Program-made: the position numbers and the translations under genes | In this document: positions 18,177 to 18,578 of the stretch, piece after piece | How positions within the stretch are numbered: the first letter of the stretch is position 1 | Layout of the letters: the number at the start of each line of letters is the position of its first letter | Origin: Romboutsia ilealis | GTDB taxonomy: Bacteria > Bacillota > Clostridia > Peptostreptococcales > Peptostreptococcaceae | DNA: 64,000 nucleotides | Assembly: GCF_900015215.1 (NCBI RefSeq) | Contig: NZ_LN555523.1 | Location: 1,163,481-1,227,480 of the forward strand | Direction of reading: 5' to 3' | Notes under the pieces: model-generated | Told to the model about the DNA's origin: nothing | Database searches by the model: none | The model's input: only the letters and a program-made list of their open reading frames with translations

Positions 18177-18530
18177 TTATAATAGCTTTTCTTTCCATTC
18201 ATCTACTTTAAATCCTATAACTACATTTTTACCATCATAAGCTATAGGTCTTTTTATAAGCATTCCGTCGCTTGATAATATATCTAAAAGCTTTTCATCT
18301 GATTCGGTTTTAACGATATCTTTTAAACCAAGTTCTCTATATTTTACTCCACTAGTGTTAAAGAACTTTTTAAGCTCATATCCACTTACTTCATACATTT
18401 CTTTTAATTCTTCTTTACTTGGTGGATTTTTAACTATTTCTATATTTTCAAATTCTAAATTATTTTCCTCAAGCCAAACCTTGGCCTTTCTTACGGTAGA
18501 TCATTTTGAATATCCATAAAATTTTATCAT
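18177..18530 (-). CDS. ArsC/Spx-family reductase, candidate selenoprotein (in-frame TGA at Cys10)
   Basis: Read from the ATG at 18530 (RBS GAAAGGATG), the frame gives 117 residues, the normal length of ArsC/Spx-family thiol oxidoreductases, interrupted once by TGA at codon 10 (18501-18503). The context is FYGYSK-[TGA]-STVRKAK, where the family has the catalytic cysteine (KCSTCRKA). The rest is intact, including NPPSKEELKE, KKFFNTSG, YRELGLKD, SSDGMLIKRPI and VGFKVDEWKE. Sixteen bases after the TGA the mRNA can form GCCAA-GGU-UUGGC, matching the bacterial SECIS pattern. If read as selenocysteine, it would act as a redox or arsenate reductase. The alternative is a pseudogene with a nonsense mutation, leaving a 73-residue piece from ATG 18398. 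I favour recoding: one stop, exactly at the Cys, with the rest undamaged. Confidence 0.7.
18473..18485 (-). promoter_or_regulatory. Candidate bacterial SECIS hairpin
   Basis: On the coding strand, GCCAA GGT TTGGC forms a 5-bp stem with the loop GGU. An outer AA/UU extension is possible past a bulged G. The loop G is 21 nucleotides after the UGA. Bacterial SECIS elements are read by SelB and typically have a short upper stem with G (often GGU) in the loop about 16-37 nucleotides after UGA, so position and loop both fit. No folding energy was computed. Confidence 0.6.
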
Positions 18531-18578
18531 ATTTATCATCCTTTCTATTATATATCTATATACCCTCAAATAAATAAT

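Follow-up and report, generated by a model that had tools for sequence, protein, structure and literature searches.

A candidate Cys-free selenoprotein of the ArsC/Spx type encoded through an in-frame TGA in Romboutsia ilealis and its relatives

Introduction

In the 64,000-nucleotide stretch of the Romboutsia ilealis genome analysed here (the window, C1:1163481-1227480), an arsC-like gene is crossed by a TGA at codon 10, where its homologues encode their catalytic Cys. Is this gene broken, or is the TGA read as selenocysteine (Sec), and what would the resulting protein do? A sequence-only reading, made beforehand without database searches, had proposed a Sec ArsC/Spx-family reductase and had pointed to known ArsC-like selenoproteins; these have indeed been reported since 2006 (PMC1794560). 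The data presented below lead us to regard the locus, with high confidence, as a functional selenoprotein gene placing Sec10 in an ArsC/Spx-type protein, most likely a mono-selenol disulfide reductase.

Results

The TGA at codon 10 is the only interruption of the 117-codon frame (Table 1). The sequence-only reading had given the coordinates of this frame exactly, and its other observations on the gene were reproduced: the frame has its own ribosome binding site and no further stop, the second Cys of the common CxxC is replaced by Val (codon 13 is GTA), and the standard code yields only a 73-residue product from 18398. A Rfam search of the gene region returned nothing relevant. The 436-aa protein encoded upstream matched nothing in Pfam or NCBIfam, and its gene is conserved directly upstream of the arsC-like gene in many relatives. 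At locus L064, the TGA gene is immediately preceded by an ABC transporter of the polar amino-acid type (binding protein, permease and ATPase, L064:832-2936), and the arrangement is similar in L028, L032 and L035-L046, which belong to several genera; the nearest named models of this transporter are of the glutamine or cystine type, and it is not at that place in the genus of the window. A functional link of the TGA gene to amino-acid uptake is possible.

Table 1. Features of the arsC-like gene and its immediate surroundings in the window.
Feature	Position	Strand	Basis
ArsC/Spx-type (TIGR01617) CDS, 117 aa, predicted Sec at residue 10	18177..18530	-	profile match and orthologues
ATG start codon of the arsC-like gene	18530-18528	-	sequence
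Stop codon TAA of the arsC-like gene	18177-18179	-	sequence
In-frame TGA, codon 10, aligned with the catalytic Cys of homologues	18501..18503	-	alignment
Ribosome binding site AAAGGA, 8 nt before the ATG	18539..18544	-	sequence
73-aa ORF under the standard code, without active site	18177..18398 (ATG 18398)	-	ORF list
SECIS apical hairpin GCCAA-GGU-UUGGC	18473..18485	-	sequence, family comparison, hairpin scan
Hairpin resembling an intrinsic terminator, T runs on both strands, in the gap between the arsC-like gene and convergent nhaA	18118..18164	.	hairpin scan and sequence
Upstream neighbour, 436 aa	18579..19889	-	ORF list

Of the 71 genomes compared from the same bacterial family, a homologue is present in 49. 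Among 44 close homologues, codon 10 is TGA, with no other stop, in 24 (23 genomes, 10 genera) and TGC or TGT in 20; the alignment places the TGA at the catalytic Cys, as had been read. Named organisms among the matches are Romboutsia lituseburensis, R. sedimentorum, Paraclostridium benzoelyticum and Peptacetobacter. Among the close homologues only G044 has CxxC; in every other one residue 13 is Val, save for three TGA copies with Ala. The Bacillaceae relatives are nearly all CxxC. The nearest relative of the window's genome, G047 of the same genus, has Cys (TGT) at codon 10, and Cys is also found in the 4-Mb genomes of genus g4 (probably Clostridioides), which makes Sec a lineage-variable replacement and not a family rule. 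On a 69-row tree, nine Sec/Cys changes are needed, at least six of them forced by well-supported branches.

That the TGA reflects a non-functional gene or a misread codon 10, through a nonsense mutation, a sequencing error at 18501-18503 or decay into a pseudogene, as the in-frame TGA beside the TGT of G047 could suggest, is refuted by the same TGA in 24 genes without any other stop, frameshift or lesion, by its recurrence in 23 genomes, which no sequencing error explains, by purifying selection downstream of it (dN/dS 0.04-0.15 in 12 computed pairs, of which 10 are TGA-TGA) and by the retention of the ribosome binding site and hairpin, and we give it practically no weight.

Downstream of the TGA, the sequence-only reading had proposed the hairpin GCCAA-GGU-UUGGC. 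It was located at 18485-18473 and recovered by the hairpin scan, with its loop G, at 18480, being the 21st nucleotide after the TGA, as had been stated, and its stem extends through G-U and A-U pairs to 18471-18487. The folding that had been suggested as a check was not significant for the single sequence (z -0.6 to -1.4), and over 45 nt the MFE structure favours a different pairing. Comparison of the family genes reveals a conserved hairpin with a small G-containing loop shortly after the UGA. Over the 24 TGA and 20 Cys genes, GCCAA-GGY-UUGGC is preserved where codon 10 is TGA and eroded where it encodes Cys. For Ala16, 20/24 TGA genes use GCC and 4/24 use GCT, whereas GCC occurs in 0/20 of the Cys genes; the Lys17 codon is AAG in 24/24 against 3/20, and the same counts, 24/24 against 3/20, are obtained for a G at loop position 23. 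As a baseline, the ORFs of the window use GCC for 28 of 822 Ala codons (3.4%) and AAG for 289 of 1386 Lys codons. All five apical pairs are present in 23/24 TGA genes versus 4/20 Cys genes (Fisher p 1.7e-7, uncorrected for relatedness). Once relatedness is taken into account, four independent Sec/Cys contrasts are left, all in the expected direction or without difference and too few for significance; in a sign test on the GCC codon, 3.9 of 4 contrasts on average go in the expected direction, a number of pairs that cannot reach significance. Compensatory changes are almost absent, the support being one of differential conservation: the argument for more than chance lies in the comparison, TGA and Cys genes diverging at the silent positions of which the hairpin is made. 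In the Cys gene of G047, the GGU loop is intact and one stem pair is broken (GCAAA-GGT-TTGGC), a state that a recent change from Sec to Cys would be expected to leave.

The selD gene of R. ilealis carries a hairpin, GCCAGA-GGU-UCUGGC, whose loop and spacing (loop G at +21) are the same as in the arsC-like gene. The pattern GCCAN{1,2}GGYN{1,2}TGGC occurs 16 times in the 2.59-Mb (2,588,193-bp) genome, namely in the arsC-like gene, in selD and at 14 other sites, 13 of which are identical and one of which differs by a single base; the two examined in context (L167 and L175) are 23S rRNA sequence. Outside the family, TGA copies of the UxxC form were found (L143, L144, L146, L151 and L152), together with one UxxA form (L145) that has the same GCCAAGGCTTGGC hairpin. 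In L143 and L151, from another family of the order, the strongest hairpin is TTGGCT-GGA-AGCCAA, about 30 nt after the TGA, which suggests that their SECIS formed independently. Since these outside copies are UxxC, the resolving Cys was probably lost in the Peptostreptococcaceae-like lineage, Sec being used elsewhere together with it.

SelB, tRNA-Sec (UCA), SelA and SelD, which the sequence-only reading had named as the machinery to look for, are all encoded in the genome. The selB gene lies at C1:487167-489032 and scores 375.7 bits; tRNA-Sec, at C1:490935-491027, scores 68.8 bits and has the anticodon TCA (UCA) according to ARAGORN, and SelA and SelD were recognised by sequence and operon place. 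The genes selD, selA and selB are consecutive, and selD is itself interrupted by TGA (TTSGG-U-AAKIGPEVL). In the family sample, SelB and tRNA-Sec score above the cut-off in all genomes that contain a TGA copy. Neither is found in G069 and G070, both with Cys at codon 10; in G068, a fragmented draft that also has Cys, SelB is present and no tRNA-Sec reaches the threshold. In G065, selB, selA, selD and tRNA-Sec lie on a plasmid-like contig of 21,319 bp (C2, L177), which resembles published Terrisporobacter plasmids (PMC10564238), apart from the TGA arsC-like gene on the 4.04-Mb contig C1 (L055). The chromosomal TGA gene of G065 thus appears to rely on plasmid-borne machinery for its decoding; two genomes of its genus without Sec machinery carry Cys.

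The UGA could also be read by another tRNA (for example Trp or a near-cognate one) or be regulatory, the main product then being the 73-aa protein, for which an ATG is available. That product would be without the active site, though codons 1-9, upstream of the TGA, are conserved; moreover, the TGA stands exactly at the catalytic Cys, alternates with Cys codons only, co-occurs with the Sec machinery and is followed by a SECIS of the same geometry as in selD. Recoding to another amino acid was rejected on these grounds, and this explanation as a whole is very improbable. The gene, its TGA and the conservation of that codon, the hairpin, the machinery and the purifying selection are all features of the sequences themselves, and they indicate that Sec would almost certainly be inserted at UGA codon 10.

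Other Sec clients were sought in the genome by single-family searches and by the hairpin pattern. Single-family searches found neither FdhA nor, with a weak control, GrdA, and PF07355 (GrdB-type) gave only a partial frame of ~173 aa without TGA (G000:C1:858876-859379, L166). This frame is flanked by genes for a PTS-like transporter and a glycosylasparaginase-like protein, both named by eye. The hairpin pattern common to selD and the arsC-like gene gave no other apparent protein-coding match in the genome. We suggest, tentatively, that besides selD the arsC-like gene might be the main or only Sec-decoding client in R. ilealis.

The predicted Sec protein reaches 110.8 bits against the curated profile TIGR01617 (arsC_related), above the cut-off of 75.05, and 65.6 bits against PF03960 (ArsC), and remains below the cut-off of NF041106 (ArsC_rel_Se_1; 23.1 against 85 bits). 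Its AlphaFold model (pLDDT 95.3) places residue 10 just before a helix spanning residues 11-22, and the best PDB fold match of this model is 3gkx (TM 0.94, 45% identity). The closest solved structures, 2m46, 3gkx and 3fz4, are deposited as ArsC-like proteins and are 45-48% identical to it. Cys is absent from all 24 TGA-encoded proteins of the family.

Discussion

If Sec insertion is accepted, the function of the product has to be considered. A selenium-containing arsenate reductase would agree with the PF03960 match and with the name that surveys give to other selenium ArsC proteins. The score against TIGR00014, the glutaredoxin-type arsenate reductase, is only 49.8 bits for a cut-off of 106.05. 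In the alignment with E. coli ArsC (in a sequence that differs from 1i9d at a few positions, none of them in the triad), Arg60 is replaced by Asn58, Arg94 is kept, Arg107 falls outside the alignment and His8 aligns with Gly6. The TIGR00014 shortfall and the incomplete arsenate-binding triad count against this function, the listed ORFs surrounding the arsC-like gene include no ars genes, and we consider it unlikely.

The alternative that survives best, while still having a rather low probability, is a transcription regulator of the Spx/MgsR kind that would sense oxidants through its Sec instead of acting as a reductase. The NCBIfam name of TIGR01617 is Spx/MgsR family RNA polymerase-binding regulatory protein, and the fold matches that of Spx bound to the C-terminal domain of the RNA polymerase alpha subunit (TM about 0.86). 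The Sec protein, however, misses all three Spx cut-offs (56.3 versus 123, 47.1 versus 159 and 43.6 versus 152 bits), and its identity to Spx is only about 25%, versus the 45-48% found with 3gkx, 3fz4 and 2m46. Its motif is UxxV and there is no second Cys, so that the CxxC disulfide switch of Spx cannot operate. Both proteins have the fold and superfamily in common, but Spx also has a longer C-terminus.

We therefore return to the mono-selenol disulfide reductase, which is favoured by the absence of Cys, the broken Arg triad and the precedent of YffB. From the earlier wording, "Sec ArsC/Spx-family reductase", the Sec gene and the family (TIGR01617) stand, while "reductase" is a deduction, the cut-offs of classical ArsC and of Spx being missed. 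In the proposed mechanism, UGA codon 10 would be decoded by SelB and tRNA-Sec(UCA), aided by the hairpin that closely follows it, to yield a 117-aa ArsC/Spx-type protein of thioredoxin fold with Sec10, at the start of helix 1, as its sole redox residue. The selenolate would attack an oxidised sulfur, either a disulfide or a low-molecular-weight mixed disulfide, forming a selenenyl-sulfide. As there is no Cys in the protein, this bond would have to be resolved from outside, by an external thiol or by a partner of the thioredoxin/glutaredoxin type, in a monothiol-type mechanism, and as none of the 24 TGA proteins has Cys, the redox cycle would start and end at Sec10 with an outside thiol. We hold this reductase mechanism to be somewhat better than an even chance.

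YffB (P. aeruginosa 1rw1, Brucella 2kok) offers a parallel to such a mechanism in having, like the Sec protein, an ArsC fold, one redox residue and one triad Arg; it has a single Cys, binds glutathione and has been proposed to be a thiol reductase (PMC3169414). It differs by its Cys in place of Sec, by an identity of about 21-25% and by its thiol partner, glutathione, which is not an established one for R. ilealis. SACOL0876 (2m46), 3gkx of B. fragilis, 3fz4 of S. mutans and the Bacillus relatives (TM 0.88-0.94, 45-48% identity) have the FFNT and KRP motifs in common with the Sec protein, but these Cys homologues have CxxC where it has Sec and Val.

Selenium ArsC proteins with UxxS and UxxC motifs are known from a marine survey and reviews, as ArsC 1 (UxxS, TIGR00014/COG1393) and as ArsC-like (UxxC, assigned to cd03032 in the marine survey and to NF041106 in the 2026 review) (PMC2398784, PMC9312934, PMC13188914). 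The Sec protein has in common with both the PF03960 superfamily and a UGA-encoded Sec for the first catalytic Cys; it differs in missing the TIGR00014 and NF041106 cut-offs, in belonging to TIGR01617, in its UxxV motif and in being Cys-free. The 2026 review mentions neither TIGR01617 nor MgsR, and its one UxxV entry is TsoY, of a different family; our literature search found no paper joining selenoprotein, Spx, thioredoxin and C. difficile. The Cys-free UxxV form within TIGR01617 thus appears new, though the work of Haft and Gwadz on selenoprotein families of C. difficile, or a 2025 follow-up, may name it.

These results add a predicted conserved selenoprotein to the gut and soil bacteria of the Peptostreptococcaceae type. 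As the same TGA coding is conserved across the family, a genuine enzyme would be overlooked or cut short by automatic annotation, and as Sec would be the only redox residue of this protein, Sec chemistry would have to drive its function. If the arsC-like gene proved to be the main client besides selD, a whole amino-acid insertion pathway would be kept largely for one small mono-selenol redox protein. The repeated Sec/Cys exchanges on a small tree, one of them within a genus and with a decayed hairpin, constitute a natural experiment on the gain and loss of Sec.
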